Source: Rhodoferax sp. (lineage in GTDB: Bacteria > Pseudomonadota > Gammaproteobacteria > Burkholderiales > Burkholderiaceae_C). From it: a DNA stretch of 64,000 nucleotides. This document shows, one piece after another, positions 1 through 8,440 of this stretch; the first letter of the stretch is position 1; the number at the start of each line of letters is the position of its first letter. The stretch covers positions 1-64,000 of the forward strand of contig NZ_JAUSLE010000009.1 of NCBI RefSeq assembly GCF_030646845.1, given 5' to 3'. The notes under the pieces are model-generated. The model had not been told where the DNA came from and did no database searches. It saw nothing but the letters and a program-made list of their open reading frames with translations. The position numbers and the translations under genes were made by a program.

Positions 1-150
1 TACACCATCCAAAAGCTCTTGGGCCACACCCACATTGCTACCACCGGACGCTACTTGCATCTCATCAGTCCACAGTTTCGGCCACCCAAAGACATCGACC
101 CATTGGACCTGCTGGCAGGTTTGTATCCCGTCATAGATCCAGGCGGGTAG
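1..150 (+). CDS. Tyrosine recombinase, C-terminal fragment (cut by window edge)
   Basis: The first 49 codons are open in frame 1 and end at TAG. They contain the C-terminal part of a phage-integrase-type catalytic domain: LLGH followed by TTGRYLHL, where the H and the Y match the last conserved His and the nucleophilic Tyr. The C-terminus is not the one expected of an integron integrase (IntI proteins have a TTMIYTHV-like end), so I do not read it as intI. The gene stops 27 bases before the IS91 transposase and has the same direction. Some IS91 family elements carry an accessory tyrosine recombinase gene upstream of the transposase, and this fits that layout. The rest of the gene lies outside the window. 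Confidence 0.75.
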   Translation, partial: YTIQKLLGHTHIATTGRYLHLISPQFRPPKDIDPLDLLAGLYPVIDPGG

Positions 151-177
151 TCCTGCGCTACCCGCACCCGTACTGCC

Positions 178-1372
178 ATGGCAGGCACCGTAGCCCAGGT
201 GCTGCGCAGCTTCGGTGCGCAATATCTGGCAACACACACCCTGAACACCCCCCAGGCCAAAGCCTGGCGGGGTATCGTTGCCTGTCGCACCGAAGCCCTT
301 GGTGGCGACCGACTGGAGTGCGACCAGTGTGGTCACAACCACTGGCAATACCACTCGTGCCGTAACCGGCACTGCCCGCAGTGCGGCATGCGCGCCAAAG
401 ATGCGTGGCTACAGGGGCGCCTGAGTGAAGTGCTGGACGTGCCCTATGTGCACCTGGTATTTACCTTGCCGCACTGCTTGAACGCCTTGTACGCAGCCCA
501 CCCACGCTGGGTCATCGATACCCTGTTTACCTGCACCGCCCAGACACTAACGGAGTTTGCGGCGAACCCAAAGTGGATGGGGATGACTGGTGGCAAACCC
601 GCCTTCAGTTTGGTACTACATACTTGGACGCAGGACCTGCTGGTGCACCTGCATGTTCACGGGGTGATGGCTTGCGGGGTGTTGAATCAAGACCGGATAT
701 GGGCCACACCGGCGCGCGCCAGATTACTTGTTCCCGGTGGAGGCCTTGTCCAGTGTGTTTCGGGGCAAGTTTATGCAAGCGCTTGGACAGGCGCGTCGCG
801 CCGGCCAGATTGAACGCGATCCACAAGCCTCTGGGACGCTTTGGAATGAGCGCCAACGTCAACTCTACAAACACGCATGGGTTGTTTATGCCAAGGCCCC
901 GCTGGGTGGCACCGCCCAGGTGCTGGAGTACCTGAGCCGCTACACGCACCGCACGGCGATCAGCAATGAGCGTATTCGCACCATTACATCCGACGAGGTG
1001 GCATTCAATGTTCGCGTCAACGACCAGGGTGGGAAACGCCTGGAGCGTTTGGAGGGAGAAGAGTTTGTGCGCCGTTTCCTGTTGCACATCCTGCCCACCG
1101 GTCTCAAGCGTATCCGCCACTATGGGGTGCTAGCCTCAGCCTGCAAAGGAGTCCAACTCACAGCGGCCCGCCAGTCCCTGCACATGCCACAGCCCAGTGT
1201 GCGGGCCATAGAGTGCGCCCATGACTTCATGGCACGGGTGACCAGAATCGATCTGCGCTTGTGTCCATTTTGCAAGGTGGGGCAGTTGCAAATCACGGCC
1301 GTCTCACATGGACAGGCACGACTGCCCACGCCAGAGCACACCGTAATACCCACGAACCGGGGACCACCATGA
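178..1372 (+). pseudogene. IS91 family transposase, frameshifted
   Basis: Two overlapping ORFs (178-813 and 728-1372) together make one IS91-type (HUH, Y2, rolling-circle) transposase of about 400 residues. The first ORF has the N-terminal zinc-binding domain (CDQCGHNHWQYHSC, then CRNRHCPQCG) and the HUH-type motif HLHVHG. The second has the FRGKF block and the tyrosine-bearing YLSRYTHRTAIS block. The frame changes near 723-725: reading ...ATPARAR then YLFPVEAL needs one base of the ATTA to be skipped, so a single inserted T explains the break. A sequencing error or a real inactivating mutation are both possible. The second ORF ends with a cysteine pair (CPFC). It follows the recombinase fragment directly. 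Confidence 0.85.
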
Positions 1373-1618
1373 GGTGGCGGGTATTGGGATGGTTTGGCAT
1401 TGCAGCACGAGAGGCTGCGGGGTGCTGCTGCGCGTTGTATTGGAAAGACCACGCCAGGGCAGCGCAGATACGCATGCACTACGCCGGATTGCAAGGTGCT
1501 GCGCCGGATCGTCACGATCTTGACTGGCGGGCGTTGGTGCAAGCCGGGTCATAATTCGATTCAACACATGGGGTGAAGCTTTCAATCCCCTATAGCGACT
1601 GCCTCTGCAGGCGGTTCA

Positions 1619-1702
1619 GTCCAACATGGTTTATCAGCCGCGGGAGGCTTTTATGGTTTCTATCAGCATCGCAGCGCGGCGGATAAACGCTAATCGTTAG
1701 AC
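1619..1702 (+). repeat. attC-like integron recombination site (84 bp)
   Basis: The site starts with GTCCAAC (1619-1625, matching RYYYAAC) and ends with GTTAGAC (1696-1702, matching GTTRRRY). Inside the cores, TTTATCAGCCGCG (1630-1642) and CGCGGCGGATAAA (1675-1687) are inverted repeats with 12 of 13 positions matching, leaving a 32-nt central segment. The spacers between core and inner arm differ in length (4 and 8 nt), an asymmetry common in attC stems. The 84-bp size is within the usual 57-141 bp range. The cassette gene this site belonged to lies upstream and seems to have been replaced by the IS91 element. Confidence 0.8.
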
Positions 1703-1721
1703 CGACACCGCTGCGCGGCCC

Positions 1722-2417
1722 GTGAGTTCTCCATCCCGACTTCTGATCTTCGAGGGCATCATGGGTGCCGGCAAATCGACGGCCTCCCGCGCGTTTGGCG
1801 AACGAATTACAGCTGCGGGATTGCAGGTTGCGACCTATACCGAGGCGGCAGACCCTCACCCAGTGCGTGCCTCCGACGATCTCGCAGATTTCTTCCAGCC
1901 TTGGTTGGAAGTAGAACCGAGCGTACTTGCGTGCCGAGTCCGTGCGAAATGGGCGCGCTACGTAGACCGTCGACTGAATGATCGCGTCTTCACCGTCATG
2001 GACGGGCAGCTATTTCATGGTGATCAGACGCATCTGTTCATGATGGAGATGCGGGCGACTGATCTTAGGGCACACGTTGCGGAGTTGATGGGTGTTCTCG
2101 ACCCGTTGGGCCCGGTGGTGATCTACTTTCGTCACACTGATGTCCGGCGTGCCATCCACGCTGTCTTCGAGGCGCGGGGAGGCAAGTGGGAGTCCTACCA
2201 GCTTGATTGGAAACTTCGCTCGCCGTATGCTAAACATCGAAAGCTCGAAGGGTTGCTAGGTCTCACCACCATGTACGAGGAGTACCGAGGCCTCACCGAC
2301 TCGCTATTTGCATCGCTTAACTGCCGAAAGCTCACCATTGAAGCCGATGCTGGCGACTGGCATGGGTACTATACGAAGATCACCCAGCTTCTGGAGGAAG
2401 CGAATGTGCGCGTCTAA
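1722..2417 (+). CDS. Cassette-borne P-loop nucleotide kinase-like protein
   Basis: A 231-residue protein with a Walker A motif GIMGAGKST at residues 12-20, right after a first beta strand (LLIFE). This layout is that of small nucleotide or nucleoside kinases and related P-loop phosphotransferases. The substrate cannot be told from the sequence. The GTG start at 1722 is chosen because the next ATG (1760) would fall inside the Walker A loop; no clear ribosome-binding site is visible. The gene begins 20 bases after the GTTAGAC core of the preceding attC, and its TAA stop is part of the heptamer GTCTAAC (2412-2418). That is the normal structure of an integron gene cassette. Alternatives are an AAA-type or deoxynucleoside-kinase-like protein. 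Confidence 0.7.
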   Translation: MSSPSRLLIFEGIMGAGKSTASRAFGERITAAGLQVATYTEAADPHPVRASDDLADFFQPWLEVEPSVLACRVRAKWARYVDRRLNDRVFTVMDGQLFHGDQTHLFMMEMRATDLRAHVAELMGVLDPLGPVVIYFRHTDVRRAIHAVFEARGGKWESYQLDWKLRSPYAKHRKLEGLLGLTTMYEEYRGLTDSLFASLNCRKLTIEADAGDWHGYYTKITQLLEEANVRV

Positions 2418-2439
2418 CATGGCATATATGGACTCCCCC

Positions 2440-2718
2440 ACAAGTGCAAGAAACTGACCGATAGTTTGGCTGTTGGGGATGCGCCTGCAGTCGTATATCC
2501 GGCATCTAAGGTGGACTCTGTTGTGGTCCGTGCCGACATGGAATCTGCGTCACCGATGCGCCAGTCGATACGAACGGCAGGCAAGCTGCCGGAAGTGTTA
2601 TCGGCGTCAGTCGGTGTGGGGTGAACCCGGTTGGCCATGATGGTCGATCAATCTCGTCGCAACGCGTGATGGGTGTTCAAAACTTCTTCTTGGTGACGGC
2701 TGTTCTGGATGTTGGCAA
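2440..2718 (-). ncRNA. Candidate guide (bridge/seek) RNA region of the IS1111-type element
   Basis: About 280 bases separate the transposase stop from the right inverted repeat and hold no gene I can support. In IS1111-group elements the RNA that guides target choice is encoded in this position, downstream of the transposase, so a non-coding RNA on the minus strand is expected here. Short matches to the attC target flanks occur: TCAGTCG (2607-2613) matches the right flank, and GCCATG (2634-2639) is the complement of CATGGC in the left flank. CAGTCGA (2562-2568) and ACATGGAAT (2536-2544) are further near matches. These are 6-9 nt and could be chance. Limits and fold were not computed. Confidence 0.4.
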
Positions 2719-3804
2719 TCAAGCTGGCATCACAAAACTCTCCCTGCTGATCTTCTTGCCAAGCCGCACGGTTTGTTCACCAAACGGCTCCTTATCCCTG
2801 AGCGTGGCATAACAAATCCGCGCCAGCTTGTTGGCCAGCGCACACGCCGCCTTGTTGTGATTGCTTCTGGCCTGCACATCCAGCGCCCAGCGGCGCACAC
2901 CGCAGACTTCACGTCCTGCGTTGTCCGCCACCTTGGAGGCGCGCAATACGCTCCTGGCGCCGTGGGTCAACAACATGCGCAGGTAGCGGTCCCCCTTCTT
3001 GGAGATGCGCCCCAGGTAGCGGCTGTTGCCCGAGCTGTACTCCTTGGGTGTCAAGCCAAACCAGCTGGAGAAGTGGCGCGCATCCTTGAAGTGGCTCACA
3101 TCGCCCGAGGTAGCTGCCACCAGGGCGGTGGCGGTGAGCAGGCCAATGCCCGGAATCGACAGCAAGGTCGTGCAGGCCGGGCTCAACTTGGCCAGGGCTG
3201 CCAACTCACGCTCCAGTTGGGCGATCCGGCCTTCGAGCAGACGAATCTCTTCGACCAACAACTTGGCCGTGCCACGGATCAAATCGGGAATTGCGGTGCC
3301 CGGATCGGCCAGCACACGGCTGATCGCTTCAACGCCGGTACGCGCACCCATGGGGATGGCAATGCCGAACTCACGGCAAAAGCCACGCAAGGCGTTGATG
3401 CGGCTGGTGCGCGTACCCATCCAAAGGCTGCGGATGCGGTGCATGCCTTGCAGGGCCTGTTGCTCAACCGACTTGACGCGCACCGGGCGCATGTCAGAGG
3501 CCCGTGCCGCTTCCAGGAGTGCCGCCGCGTCTGCCGCATCGGTCTTGTTACGTTTGACATAGGCGCGGATGTACTGGGCCGGTAGTAGCCGCACCTCAAT
3601 GCCCAGGCCATTGAGCCAGCGGCCCCAGTGGTGCGCCGAGCCACAGGCTTCCATGATGACCAGAGACACTTCACGGTTCAAGAACCACCGTTCAAACTGA
3701 GTGCGGGTGAGGCGCTGTGTTTCAACCACACGCCAATGTTCATCGGCAACAGCGAGTTGAAACACGGACTTTGCAAGATCGACGGCAACAGTAGTAGCAT
3801 TCAT
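2719..3804 (-). CDS. IS110 family (IS1111 group) transposase
   Basis: A 361-residue DEDD transposase. The N-terminal RuvC-like domain begins VAVDLAKSVFQLAV, where the D is the first catalytic acid, and continues with NKTDAADAAALLEA. The C-terminal Transposase_20 domain has SIPGIGLLTATALVA, FSSWFGLTPKEYSSG and KKGDRYLRMLL, with a serine in the SSG block as in the family. The ORF track begins further upstream, but MNATTVAVD at 3804 is preceded by a good site (AAGGAGTCCGACATG), so I start there. Length is usual for the family. The gene looks intact, so the element may still be active. It runs opposite to the cassette genes. Confidence 0.9.
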   Translation of the reverse strand: MNATTVAVDLAKSVFQLAVADEHWRVVETQRLTRTQFERWFLNREVSLVIMEACGSAHHWGRWLNGLGIEVRLLPAQYIRAYVKRNKTDAADAAALLEAARASDMRPVRVKSVEQQALQGMHRIRSLWMGTRTSRINALRGFCREFGIAIPMGARTGVEAISRVLADPGTAIPDLIRGTAKLLVEEIRLLEGRIAQLERELAALAKLSPACTTLLSIPGIGLLTATALVAATSGDVSHFKDARHFSSWFGLTPKEYSSGNSRYLGRISKKGDRYLRMLLTHGARSVLRASKVADNAGREVCGVRRWALDVQARSNHNKAACALANKLARICYATLRDKEPFGEQTVRLGKKISRESFVMPA

Positions 3805-3964
3805 GTCGGACTCCTTACGTTTTAAAGAACTGCTCCCCACGCCAATGAAGACCAGTACGCAAATATTGCGCAAAAAAACGGGGGAGTCCATCCCATCAGT
3901 CGACGCGGACGTCCTTGCGGCAGGCTGTCGTCTGCCTATAGTCCGCCGGTCACTTCTAGGTTAA

Positions 3965-4429
3965 ATGGCCACATTCACCATGGCGAGAATTTCGCGATCC
4001 CCCATCGGCGCAACGCCGTACGAAAGAGTGATGGGCCACGCCCCTCACGTCTTGGAGCCGTGGTCAAAGCTTGAAGAAGTATTCTATTCTCGCTCTGTCC
4101 TTCCCGCCGATCTGCTGGAGCAGGTTCGCCGGACACTGGCACTTGGTCATGGCTGTGAGTACTGCATGGCCAAAGGCGGTCCGCCTGAGTCCATGCATGA
4201 GGCATTGCGCACCTCGCTAGCCGTCGGGCTGGCGCAGCTGTTCGCAGCCGACCACCGCGAAATCGATGAGACTCAACTCAACATCATGCGCGAGCACTTC
4301 TCCGAACCCGAACTCGTTGAACTCGTCGCTTTCATGGGGTTCATGTGGGCAGGCGGCACCTTCGGAAAGGTCTTCGGTATCCAGCCCATTGAATCGCCCG
4401 AAACGTCCATCCCCCGAACAGCCACCTAG
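3965..4429 (+). CDS. Carboxymuconolactone decarboxylase / AhpD-like protein, integron cassette gene
   Basis: A 154-residue protein of the CMD/AhpD fold. The redox-type CEYC pair (C64, C67) lies in the conserved helix RRTLALGHGCEYCMAKG, followed by helices resembling the second half of the domain. Members with CxxC act as alkylhydroperoxidase-like thiol enzymes; the exact substrate is unknown. The ATG at 3965 overlaps the last bases of the attC core GTTAAAT, so the gene starts at the cassette boundary; no ribosome-binding site is visible, as in many cassette genes. Met6 is an alternative start. After the stop, ACCTAGC is one base off the RYYYAAC core, but no second attC half follows, so the array seems to end here. 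Confidence 0.8.
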   Translation: MATFTMARISRSPIGATPYERVMGHAPHVLEPWSKLEEVFYSRSVLPADLLEQVRRTLALGHGCEYCMAKGGPPESMHEALRTSLAVGLAQLFAADHREIDETQLNIMREHFSEPELVELVAFMGFMWAGGTFGKVFGIQPIESPETSIPRTAT

Positions 4430-4474
4430 CCCTTCTTACGGCAGTGGCGCACCGACAGGGCGTTCTCGATCAGA

Positions 4475-5392
4475 TCAGGCAGTCCGTGCCACGTTGGCCA
4501 TCGCTTTGGTCACCTCGTTGGTGCCCTGCGCAGCGCCGCTTTGCGGCACTGTTTCCCCGGCACGATCAGTCACCTCGGCCAGACGCTCGGCCAGGCGCTC
4601 CGGGGCCTGCGCGTCGGTGCCAATCCAGGCGCCCTGTGTCATGGTGATATGGGCCGCCTCAAAGGTGCCGGCGCCCGCACACAGGATGGTGCGGGTGGGC
4701 GCGTCTTGCGAGGCCAGCACCAGCATGGCCGGCACCACGGCCTCGGGCTTGAGGGCTTCCAGAATGGCCTCGGGCATCAGGCCCTCGGTCATGCGGGTGG
4801 CGGCCGTGGGTGCCAGGCAATTGACACGAATGTCGTTTTTGGCGCCTTCAAGCGACAGGGTCTGCATCAGGCCCACCAGCGCCATCTTGGCCGCGCCATA
4901 GTTGGACTGGCCAAAGTTGCCGTACAGGCCGCTCGACGAGGTGGTCATGACAATACGGCCGTACTTCTGCTCATTCATGATGGCCCACACCGCCTTGGTG
5001 CAGTGCACGGCGCCCATCAGGTGCACGTCCACCACCAGTTCAAAGTCAGCCAGCTCCATCTTGGCAAAGCTTTTGTCACGCAGAATGCCCGCGTTGTTCA
5101 CCAGAACGTCCACACGGCCCCAGGCGTCCATCACCTGCTGCACCATGGCTTGCACCGCCGCAAAGTCGGTCACCGACGCACCGTTGGCCATCGCCTCGCC
5201 GCCGGCTGCCTTGATCTCGGCCACCACGGCCTCGGCGGCGCTCACCGAGCCACCGGAGCCGTCGCGCGCGCCGCCCAGATCGTTCACCAGCACCTTGGCG
5301 CCACGCGCCGCCAGCGCCAGGGCATGTTGACGACCCAGTCCGCCGCCGGCGCCGGTCACGATGGCCACGCGGCCTTTGAAATCAATAGTCAT
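4475..5392 (-). CDS. SDR family dehydrogenase, (3R)-hydroxyacyl-CoA dehydrogenase-like
   Basis: A 305-residue classical-type short-chain dehydrogenase/reductase. The NAD(P)-binding motif TGAGGGLG is at residues 13-20, NNAG follows, and the catalytic Ser and YGAAK lie in SSSGLYGNFGQSNYGAAK. The insertion after the first Rossmann unit (NDLGGARDGSGGS) resembles the dehydrogenase part of peroxisomal multifunctional enzyme type 2, which oxidises (3R)-hydroxyacyl-CoA. The C-terminus is longer than in simple FabG. The start is ATG at 5392 with GAGGGAG-type sequence upstream. It is divergent from the Nudix gene, with an inverted repeat between them. Role in acyl-CoA or side-chain oxidation is inferred. 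Confidence 0.85.
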   Translation of the reverse strand: MTIDFKGRVAIVTGAGGGLGRQHALALAARGAKVLVNDLGGARDGSGGSVSAAEAVVAEIKAAGGEAMANGASVTDFAAVQAMVQQVMDAWGRVDVLVNNAGILRDKSFAKMELADFELVVDVHLMGAVHCTKAVWAIMNEQKYGRIVMTTSSSGLYGNFGQSNYGAAKMALVGLMQTLSLEGAKNDIRVNCLAPTAATRMTEGLMPEAILEALKPEAVVPAMLVLASQDAPTRTILCAGAGTFEAAHITMTQGAWIGTDAQAPERLAERLAEVTDRAGETVPQSGAAQGTNEVTKAMANVARTA

Positions 5393-5504: not shown

Positions 5505-6389
5505 ATGGAACTGAATTCTGAAGTCGTCTCCGCTCCACCCCGCGCGGCCGCCACCGTGGTGATGCTGCGCGACACGGACGACGGTGTCGCGGGCATCGAA
5601 GTTTTTCTGCTCAAGCGCCACGGTCTGTCCGACGTGCTGGGCGGGGCCTATGTGTTTCCCGGCGGCAAGGTGGACCCGTCTGACGCGCAGCTGGACATGG
5701 AGGCGCACCTGGACCAGCCCCTGCATGCGCTGCACGCGGGTCTGAATGAGCCTGACATTGAGCCCCTGACTGCGGCCAGCCTGTATGTGGCGGCATTGCG
5801 GGAGGCGTTCGAGGAATCGGGCATTCTGTTTGCGCACGGTGCCTCCGCTGAGCATGCAGCGCGGGCCGCCGAGCTGCTGCGCCAAGGTCGCGGCTTTGAT
5901 GCCGTGCTGTCACAGATGGCCTTGCGCCTGCAGAGCAGCAGCGTGCTGCCCTGGTCGCGCTGGATTACCCCGAGGATGCCGTCGGTGACGAACAAGCGCT
6001 TCGACACCCGCTTCTTTGTCTCGGCGGTACCCGCGGATCAGATTGCCAGCCATGACAACCACGAGACGACTGAAAGCGTCTGGCTCAGACCCCGCGCCGC
6101 ACTGGAGCAATACTGGCAGGGTCAGATCGAGCTCGCACCGCCGCAGATCATGAGTCTGATCCAGTTGGCCGGTCACGCCAGCGTGCAAAGCGTGCTGCAG
6201 GCCGCACGCGGTCGCCTGCCCCCGGTGATTGAGCCCGAGCCGTTCGAGCATGAAGGTTCGCGCGTCATTTGCTACCCCGGCGACGAGCGCCATTCGGTCA
6301 GCGCGCGCGCGCTGCCGGGCCCGACCCGGCTGATCTACCGCAACAAACGCTTTGAGCCCATGACCGGCTTCGACGGGCTGTTTGACTGA
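5505..6389 (+). CDS. Nudix hydrolase, NUDT19-like
   Basis: A 294-residue Nudix protein. The box is interrupted: GGKVDPSD lies near residue 55, and the matching REAFEESGILF follows only after an insertion of about 45 residues, the pattern seen in NUDT19-type enzymes. Those enzymes hydrolyse CoA and CoA derivatives; that substrate is inference here. The N-terminal strand AATVVMLRDTDDG and the motif LLKRHG are typical. The ATG at 5505 is followed at once by the conserved domain. The divergent neighbour is an acyl-CoA-type dehydrogenase, in keeping with a role in CoA metabolism. Confidence 0.8.
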   Translation: MELNSEVVSAPPRAAATVVMLRDTDDGVAGIEVFLLKRHGLSDVLGGAYVFPGGKVDPSDAQLDMEAHLDQPLHALHAGLNEPDIEPLTAASLYVAALREAFEESGILFAHGASAEHAARAAELLRQGRGFDAVLSQMALRLQSSSVLPWSRWITPRMPSVTNKRFDTRFFVSAVPADQIASHDNHETTESVWLRPRAALEQYWQGQIELAPPQIMSLIQLAGHASVQSVLQAARGRLPPVIEPEPFEHEGSRVICYPGDERHSVSARALPGPTRLIYRNKRFEPMTGFDGLFD

Positions 6390-7095: not shown

Positions 7096-8400
7096 ATGCC
7101 AGTCAAGACTCCCGCTCCAGGTGATCTGGAACACATCGAGAAGGCCAGCCAGGACGAATTGCAGGCCCTGCAAACCGAACGGCTGAAGTGGACGCTGCAG
7201 CACGCCTATGACAACGTGCCGCATTACCGTGCCGCTTTTGATGTCAGGGGCGTGCACCCTCGCGATCTGAAAACGCTGGCGGACCTGGTCAAGTTTCCGT
7301 TCACCACCAAACAGGACCTGCGCGCCAACTACCCGTTCGGCATGCTGGCGGTACCGAGAGAGCGGGTGGCGCGCATCCACGCCTCGTCGGGCACCACCGG
7401 CAAACCCACGGTGGTGGGCTACACGCTGAAAGACATTGACAACTGGGCCAACGTGGTGGCGCGCTCCATCCGCGCCGCTGGTGGCCGTCCCGGTGACATG
7501 GTGCATGTGGCCTACGGCTACGGTCTGTTCACCGGCGGCCTGGGCGCGCATTACGGCGCCGAGCGCGCCGGCTGCACGGTGATTCCGATGTCCGGCGGGC
7601 AGACGGAAAAGCAGGTGCAATTGATCCAGGACTTCAAGCCGGACATCATCATGGTCACGCCCAGCTACATGCAGGTGGTGATTGAAGAGTTCGTGCGCCA
7701 GGGACTGGACCCCCGGGCGTCCAGTCTCAAGGTGGGCATCTTCGGTGCCGAGCCCTGGACCGAGGCACTGCGCACCGAGATCGAAGCGAATGCCGGGCTT
7801 GACGCTGTCGACATCTATGGCCTGTCCGAAGTGATGGGGCCAGGCGTGGCCAGCGAATGCATTGAAAGCAAGGACGGCCCGGTGATCTGGGAAGATCATT
7901 TTTATCCTGAAGTCATTGACCCGGACACGGGTGAAGTGCTGCCGGATGGCTCGGAAGGCGAACTGGTTTTCACCTCGCTCACCAAGGAAGCCCTGCCGGT
8001 GATCCGCTACCGCACGCGTGATCTGACGCGCCTGCTGCCGCCCACCTCCCGCAGCATGCGCCGCATGGGCAAGATTGTGGGCCGCAGCGACGACATGCTG
8101 ATCATTCGCGGCGTCAACGTCTTTCCCACGCAGATTGAAGAGATCGTGCTGAAGCACGGCCAGCTGTCCGGCCAGTATCAGCTGGTCGTGACACGGGACG
8201 ACAGCCTGGACGCGGTGGAAGTGCGCTGCGAGTTGCTGCCTTCGGCGACCATCAGCGCGGATGAAGCACGCGACTGGGTTCGGGCCCGGATCAAGGCCTT
8301 CGTAGGCATCAGCACGCAGGTTACCGTGGGATTGCCCGACAGCATCGAGCGCACGCTGGTCGGCAAGGCCAGACGCGTGATCGACCTGCGCAAGATGTAA
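7096..8400 (+). CDS. paaK: Phenylacetate-CoA ligase PaaK
   Basis: A 434-residue AMP-forming ligase that activates phenylacetate with ATP and CoA, the entry step of the aerobic hybrid pathway. The P-loop-like motif SSGTTGKP is at residues 97-104; the acyl-adenylate motif appears in [20 protein letters not shown] and [21 protein letters not shown] mark the hinge and the mobile C-terminal domain. Length is normal for PaaK. AAGGATTCACCCCACC ahead of the ATG supplies the ribosome-binding site. It stands between paaI and paaA in one transcription unit. Confidence 0.93.
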
Positions 8401-8440
8401 CCCGCACCTCAGACAGAACCAACTTTCACAGGAGCTGCAC

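Follow-up and report, generated by a model that had tools for sequence, protein, structure and literature searches.

A probable remnant of an integrase-less chromosomal integron in Rhodoferax, with an IS91-like cassette and an attC site split by an IS1111-attC-group element

Introduction

How do integron gene cassettes come to stand in a chromosome in which no integron integrase gene (intI) is found, and what part do the transposons among them play? The question is raised by positions 1619–4429 of a 64-kb window (the whole stretch of DNA analysed, 64,000 nucleotides), which begins at base 1 of contig C1 in the draft genome of Rhodoferax sp. (4.35 Mb, 88 contigs). The original prediction described this region as integron cassettes without an integrase, disrupted by two transposon families. 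In our analysis the window probably holds the remnant of a sedentary chromosomal integron without intI, in which an IS91-like element forms one cassette and an attC recombination site is split by an IS1111 element. Throughout, G000 denotes this genome, other G numbers other genomes, L numbers extracted loci and C numbers contigs of this genome.

Results

Cores, integrase and attC searches

All four predicted integron cores are present: GTCCAAC (1619–1625), GTTAGAC (1696–1702), GTCTAAC (2412–2418) and GTTAAAT (3960–3966). As had been noted, GTCTAAC contains the TAA stop of a kinase-like gene, and GTTAAAT overlaps the start of the next gene (ATG at 3965). The absence of intI also held and extends beyond the window: no gene in the whole 4.35-Mb assembly reached the TIGR02249 cut-off (265 bits), the top score being 79.5 bits. 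Of 251 genomes sampled from the family, 106 have an integron integrase at or above this cut-off. Pfam searches identified two transposase types in the window, Y2/IS91 and DEDD/IS110, and scans of the 64 kb with Rfam and for tRNA genes gave no matches.

We built an attC covariance model, R1, from 20 family attC sites picked in integron loci of relatives; across 20 integron loci it recovered well over 100 sites, mostly at 30–73 bits. R1 gave no real attC match in the window. The original prediction had named a lack of hits with attC models as its refutation; in formal terms this outcome applies to both sites, so that each needed its own explanation. Elsewhere in this genome, which has no intI above the cut-off, a regular attC remnant scores 43 bits (G000:C44:57273–57330; L078/L070).

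An attC site split by an IS1111-attC-group element

The second site consists of two pieces separated by an insertion sequence (IS), with outer cores R'' and R' and inner stem arms L'' and L':

2412..2424, plus strand: 5' part of the interrupted attC, consisting of R'' GTCTAAC and a further 6 nt (41 relatives share the insertion point)
2425..3898, minus strand: IS of the IS1111-attC group, with subterminal inverted repeats (sTIRs) at 2428–2439 and 3880–3891 and a noncoding region (NCR) at 2440–2718 (sequence, comparison)
2719..3891, minus strand: open reading frame (ORF) of the IS110/IS1111 transposase (PF02371, 2.1e-27, and PF01548; NF033542, 311.8 bits against a cut-off of 140)
3899..3966, plus strand: 3' part of the interrupted attC, with L'' GAC(G)CGG 3902–3908, L' CCGGTC 3946–3951, R' GTTAAAT 3960–3966 (pairing in the rebuilt site)

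The IS1111-attC group (ISPa25, ISKpn4, ISPst6) comprises elements that target attC sites (Tetu & Holmes 2008; Post & Hall 2009; PMC11187229), so an IS110-family element is expected at this position. The window IS shares with the group its DEDD transposase, its sTIRs (ATGGACTCCCCC/GGGGGAGTCCAT), the 7-bp (TGATGGG) and 3-bp (ATA) extensions in transposase orientation, the NCR downstream of the transposase gene, insertion between R'' and L'' of an attC, and the absence of target duplication. It differs from ISPa25, its best plasmid match, in that the transposase is only 46% identical and belongs to a betaproteobacterial clade; this copy sits in a chromosomal remnant without intI. The matched ISPa25 copy adjoins blaOXA-17 in a class 1 integron. 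The window transposase is single copy in its genome; it is up to 95% identical to copies in Polaromonas and Rhodoferax and has relatives in further genera.

The flanks of 41 IS copies define one insertion point. Specifically, their consensus reads ...TTGAn, the IS, then CGnnnnGTTAGGC, that is, R'' and about six bases, the IS, and L''. With the IS removed, the rebuilt 81-nt window site carries both cores, of the RYYYAAC and GTTRRRY types, and an L''/L' stem in which one base is unpaired. In an alignment with 10 other emptied sites (5 of the same subtype), 89.6% of structure cells were paired, a value matched by 0 of 500 shuffles; the stem cells of the 11 sites were 95% paired, and sliding the partners by 1–3 bases lowered pairing to 19–40%. 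R1 has no usable score here because the IS splits the site: on 3893–3985 it gave at most 3.6 bits, the query being half of a site. We therefore read GTCTAAC 2412...GTTAAAT 3960 as a genuine attC that an IS1111-attC-group element has interrupted, on the strength of IS context and pairing rather than of the proposed model.

This insertion context and the pairing of the rebuilt site speak against chance cores beside ordinary IS junctions, with no integron at all. Such a coincidence would explain why the family model finds no real match in the window; set also against the attI-like sequence described below and the attC-bearing cassettes of the same-genus locus L225, it is hardly credible.

The first site is the right end of an IS91-family element

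Upstream, at 1–1695, lies an IS91-family element, cut by the contig start:

1..150, plus strand: tyrosine recombinase gene, 3' end only, truncated at the start of the contig; IntI-like but lacking the IntI-specific patch, and an accessory gene in the IS91-like element (relatives)
178..1372, plus strand: IS91-family Y2 transposase, frameshifted, ORFs 178–813 and 728–1372 (PF14319, 1.2e-30; PF04986, 3.2e-38)
1571..1591, plus strand: hairpin GGGGTGAAGCTTTCAATCCCC close to the right end, a putative part of oriIS (sequence; hairpin core or relic in relatives)
1611..1696, plus strand: IS91-like right terminus, an attC-like site with R'' GTCCAAC 1619–1625, L'' 1629–1641 and L' 1676–1688, ending ...TAATCG at 1696 (position in relatives, stem pairing)
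1696..1702, plus strand: integron core GTTAGAC, the junction to the next cassette, with its exchange point at G/TTAGAC (flank consensus of 40 right ends)

The two Pfam domains identify a Y2 transposase with a Zn domain, as in the IS91 family. In the full-length relatives L225, L186, L194, L195 and L245, a recombinase gene precedes the transposase gene. TIGR02249 is the best NCBIfam model for these recombinases, at 144–168 bits (cut-off 265), and the IntI-specific patch is absent; by these comparisons the accessory recombinase is IntI-like, not IntI. The window copy is probably inactive, because only the last 150 bases of its recombinase gene remain and its transposase is frameshifted. The frameshift lies near 720; relatives keep an open frame of about 400 amino acids (aa).

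An R''/R' core scan with symmetric-fold scoring, run over the 64 kb independently of the first reading, returned 1619–1702 as the sole good candidate (symmetry 0.57; others at most 0.33), and the predicted inner repeat is borne out, GTTTATCAGCCGC and GCGGCGGATAAAC pairing at 12 of 13 positions. The site is nevertheless not the usual attC that the original prediction took it for: with its filters switched off, R1 scored it at 5.3 bits, and in other genera this DNA forms the fixed terminus of IS91-like elements. A DNA search with 1596–1745 hit 29 of 301 family genomes; the longer matches (72–94% identical) mostly span about 1610–1702 and end at the core. In 17 of 17 relatives (at least 45% transposase identity, downstream DNA available), the site follows the transposase gene at a similar distance of about 250 bp. 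When relatives are aligned on the end of that gene, R'' lies 243–258 bp and R' 308–324 bp downstream, and the stem is 94% paired over 22 sequences, at mostly invariant positions.

If 1619–1702 were a normal attC left behind by an upstream cassette now lost, with the IS91-family element merely inserted alongside, the good cores and the palindrome would be accounted for. This leaves unexplained the constant distance from the transposase in other genera, R1's failure to recognise the site, and three near-identical copies in G122, a closed genome of the same genus. These diverge directly after ...GATAAACGCTATTCGTT and carry the site inside a near-identical 2.57-kb unit. We consider a lost cassette very improbable and rejected a simple cassette attC on these grounds; on the same evidence 1619–1702 is assigned to the IS91-family element. 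An attI function was likewise rejected, the site being tied to the transposase by its constant distance, and no convincing motif of this kind was found upstream of 30 intact intI genes (two matches, each with 6 mismatches).

Fully palindromic relatives of the right end (CTAACGGAAAGCGTTTATC...GATAAACGCTTTCCGTTAG) occur without a transposase in L238 (about 6185–6300) and L185 (about 8300–8410). The L238 palindrome (G102) directly follows the attI region of an intact integron and resembles a mini-cassette without an ORF. In L183 (7576–8856), an inverted pair of right-end sites encloses a 359-aa ORF that looks RelA/SpoT-like by eye, and in L190 the first gene, about 110 bp past a solo right end, has a product that looks SEFIR-like by eye and is possibly a defence gene.

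The IS91-like element has the build of a gene cassette

The left end, GTTGAACTAAACCGC, lies at GTTGAAC, a GTTRRRY core, and is exact in 8 of the 9 relatives in which it was located (1 mismatch in the ninth). Both ends of the element thus coincide with integron cores. The element has the parts of a gene cassette, namely a GTTRRRY start, an attC-like end and a following cassette that begins G/TTRRRY, although this attC departs from the usual form and is not recognised by R1. Among 40 distinct right ends, the flank reads G in 40, T in 37, T in 37, A in 32, G in 33, G in 25 and C in 25, so that the majority is GTTAGGC throughout. In 37 loci we counted the regular attCs within 3 kb of the element: 17 lie downstream of it, on its own strand, 1 lies upstream and none is on the opposite strand.

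In the left flanks, an intI N-terminal remnant lies in L186 and, together with an attI-like sequence, in L225 and L226; the left flank of L195 reads as a complete attC-like sequence. In G122, L225 and L226 each have an attI-like site, a shortened intI gene (identities to intI of 62% and 53% next to the two copies) and the IS91-like cassette as first element; in L225, cassettes with attCs follow.

A relative whose transposase is 51% identical occurs in the Escherichia coli IncC plasmid pM216_AC2 (NZ_AP018145; L245:4358–6998). In the clinical class 1 integron of this plasmid, the IS91/recombinase unit fits precisely between the attC of aac(6')-IIa and the aadA4 cassette. That attC scores 44.9 bits with R1, using the element's GTTGAAC as R', and aadA4 starts G/TTAGGC; R1 detected the adjoining attCs and missed the unit's own terminal site. 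In PLSDB, the full unit at near identity was found in pM216_AC2 only. Its transposase scores 25 bits only against the ISCR model.

An ordinary rolling-circle transposon that prefers integron cores would account for part of this pattern. Its own Y2 transposase would insert directly 5' of GTTAGRC in attI or in the R' of an attC, and the 1611–1695 palindrome would be an oriIS end. IS91 elements insert next to GTTC-like tetranucleotides, a target rule that the right ends resemble in always abutting G, mostly GTT; the element also has a terminal inverted repeat (GTTGAACTAAACCGC/GCGGTTCAGTCCAAC) and an internal hairpin. A target rule of this kind fits less well with a flank consensus that spans all seven core positions, with attCs that lie downstream on the same strand, with ends that are both integron cores, the right one retaining attC-like stem geometry, or with a unit placed exactly between two cassettes of a class 1 integron. 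We rate the transposon explanation as unlikely, though far from negligible, and favour the cassette reading over insertion by the element's own transposase with moderate confidence. IntI exchange and transposase insertion at a core give identical joined sequence, because the G is shared.

An attI-like sequence without intI on contig C80

In this genome, the sole IS91-like transposase and right end are those of the window, and the left end is also single copy, at C80:119–141, pointing off the contig end. The 86-bp flank beside it aligns with the attI-like flank adjacent to intI in L225 (G122) with a score of 80 (shuffle control: mean 21, sd 4.3, maximum 39). An attI-like sequence has thus probably been retained beside the IS91-like left end, and the intI that would accompany it is gone. 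The simplest join would be C80, a gap, then C1. Window 1–160 recurs at C41:7864–8023; a second IS91 copy there was rejected, only the recombinase 3' end being repeated.

For a cluster of attC sites lacking integron integrases (CALIN), at least two attCs and no nearby intI are expected. The array has one regular split attC and one atypical attC, with no intI in the assembly. The original prediction left the choice between a CALIN-like cluster and part of a larger integron; the lack of intI stands, and the choice can now be sharpened. Because the C80 flank matches two same-genus loci with intI remnants, the array is probably an integron without intI rather than a bare CALIN.

Several observations weigh against the reading as an integron remnant with an IS91-like cassette. 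The link between C80 and C1 crosses an assembly gap, and since a second recombinase 3' end lies on C41, C80 could join C41 instead. R1's failure in the window includes its low score at 1619–1702, where the spacers are uneven (3 and 7 nt, the 5' one short), making an atypical attC that keeps the rolling-circle transposon alive as an explanation. Many solo right ends adjoin ordinary chromosomal genes. In addition, one of the G122 copies, L227, is located at GTTTCAC, away from any attC and outside any recognisable integron, so the element can sit outside integrons.

Cassette genes and the chromosomal junction

Beyond the IS91-like element, the array continues as follows:

1697..3960, plus strand: gene cassette with the kinase-like ORF, inserted IS included (cores at both ends)
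1722..2417, plus strand: 231-aa P-loop kinase-like ORF, its TAA stop inside GTCTAAC (weak P-loop/thymidylate-kinase matches)
3961..4429, plus strand: start of the third cassette and a 154-aa ORF (3965–4429), distantly like the carboxymuconolactone decarboxylase (CMD) family (protein similarity)
4475..5392, minus strand: chromosomal short-chain dehydrogenase/reductase (SDR) gene, end of the array (the SDR gene and a Nudix gene are both conserved in L253 and L254, from the same genus)

The kinase-like ORF matches NF005250 (PRK06761) with an E-value of 1.8e-22, but at 79.7 bits against a cut-off of 270, and has no Pfam match at 0.001. No relative was found in 250 other family genomes, none of use in GTDB genomes, and among plasmids a single weak match of no use. 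The 154-aa ORF is 45% identical to a Legionella plasmid protein and 40–43% to CMD-family proteins of Priestia; no attC follows it, and no GTTRRRY lies between 4430 and 4475.

In L253 and L254, gcvP (identified by eye, from the translation and from its search hit) follows the 3' end of the SDR gene. Here this neighbourhood is broken (G000:C38:1–355; window 4430–4475): gcvP is found near a contig end, at a distance of 355 bp from where C38 begins, which suggests that the locus was rearranged at the array.

Discussion

Taken in order, the proposed array would run from attI (C80) through cassettes 1, 2 and 3 to the chromosomal SDR gene. Cassette 1 would comprise the IS91-family transposase and the IntI-like tyrosine recombinase, with TTGAAC at its start and an attC-like site of its own (1619–1696) at its end; cassette 2, the kinase-like gene with the attC 2412...3966 split by the IS1111-attC-group element; and cassette 3, the CMD-like ORF without an attC. 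The cassettes were most likely set beside attI through exchange at G/TT, in the manner of IntI, by an integrase that is now gone. The IS91-like element may have arrived as a cassette or through insertion at a core site; movement by IntI, like any present activity of the array, we infer. The IS1111 element would have inserted later, between R'' and L'', where comparison with its relatives places it, presumably guided by a seekRNA as published work describes for its group.

The original prediction thus recognised the arrangement of integron cassettes without an integrase, of a kinase gene between two cores and of a 3' attC interrupted by an IS. Its two disrupting transposon families correspond to two transposase types, one of which, IS1111, does split an attC; for the IS91-family element, "preceding cassette" is a more fitting description than "disruptor".

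Our literature search for IS91 elements with attI or attC gave a single match, a remark in a Shewanella survey in which the IS91-like ISShvi3 beside an attC was termed 'a new gene cassette structure' (PMC9229058). By its description, that case likewise has an IS91-family transposase in an integron array, with element and attC forming a cassette-like unit. Here, an attC-like site and a GTTRRRY left end are constant parts of the element over many genera, and the element occurs beside attI in integrons without intI and in a class 1 integron. With CALINs (PMC9024848), the window shares cassettes and attC sites without a nearby intI; it differs in having one regular attC, which is interrupted, plus an atypical one, and in probably retaining an attI-like sequence. 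ISCR elements next to class 1 integrons resemble it in having an IS91-related transposase close to cassettes. ISCR1 differs in its position, beyond the 3' conserved segment, and is not known to carry an attC-like end.

More tentatively, and short of an even chance in our judgement, this widespread IS91-family element with its IntI-like recombinase may itself be a gene cassette, one that can travel in two ways: by integron integrase, for which it has an attC-like end and a GTTRRRY start, or by rolling-circle transposition that begins at that same end. It could then carry neighbouring cassettes out of integrase-free places or seed them into such places, and so form a link between chromosomal integrons in the environment and class 1 integrons in the clinic. 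Since R1 missed the terminal site both in the window and in the E. coli plasmid, annotation based on attC may undercount such cassettes. The locus ties two unrelated transposon families to the recombination sites of one integron, and it touches on how cassettes enter integrase-free chromosomes and how they move between environmental and clinical integrons. If the proposal is true, ends that double as transposon ends and integron recombination sites would offer cassettes a direct route.

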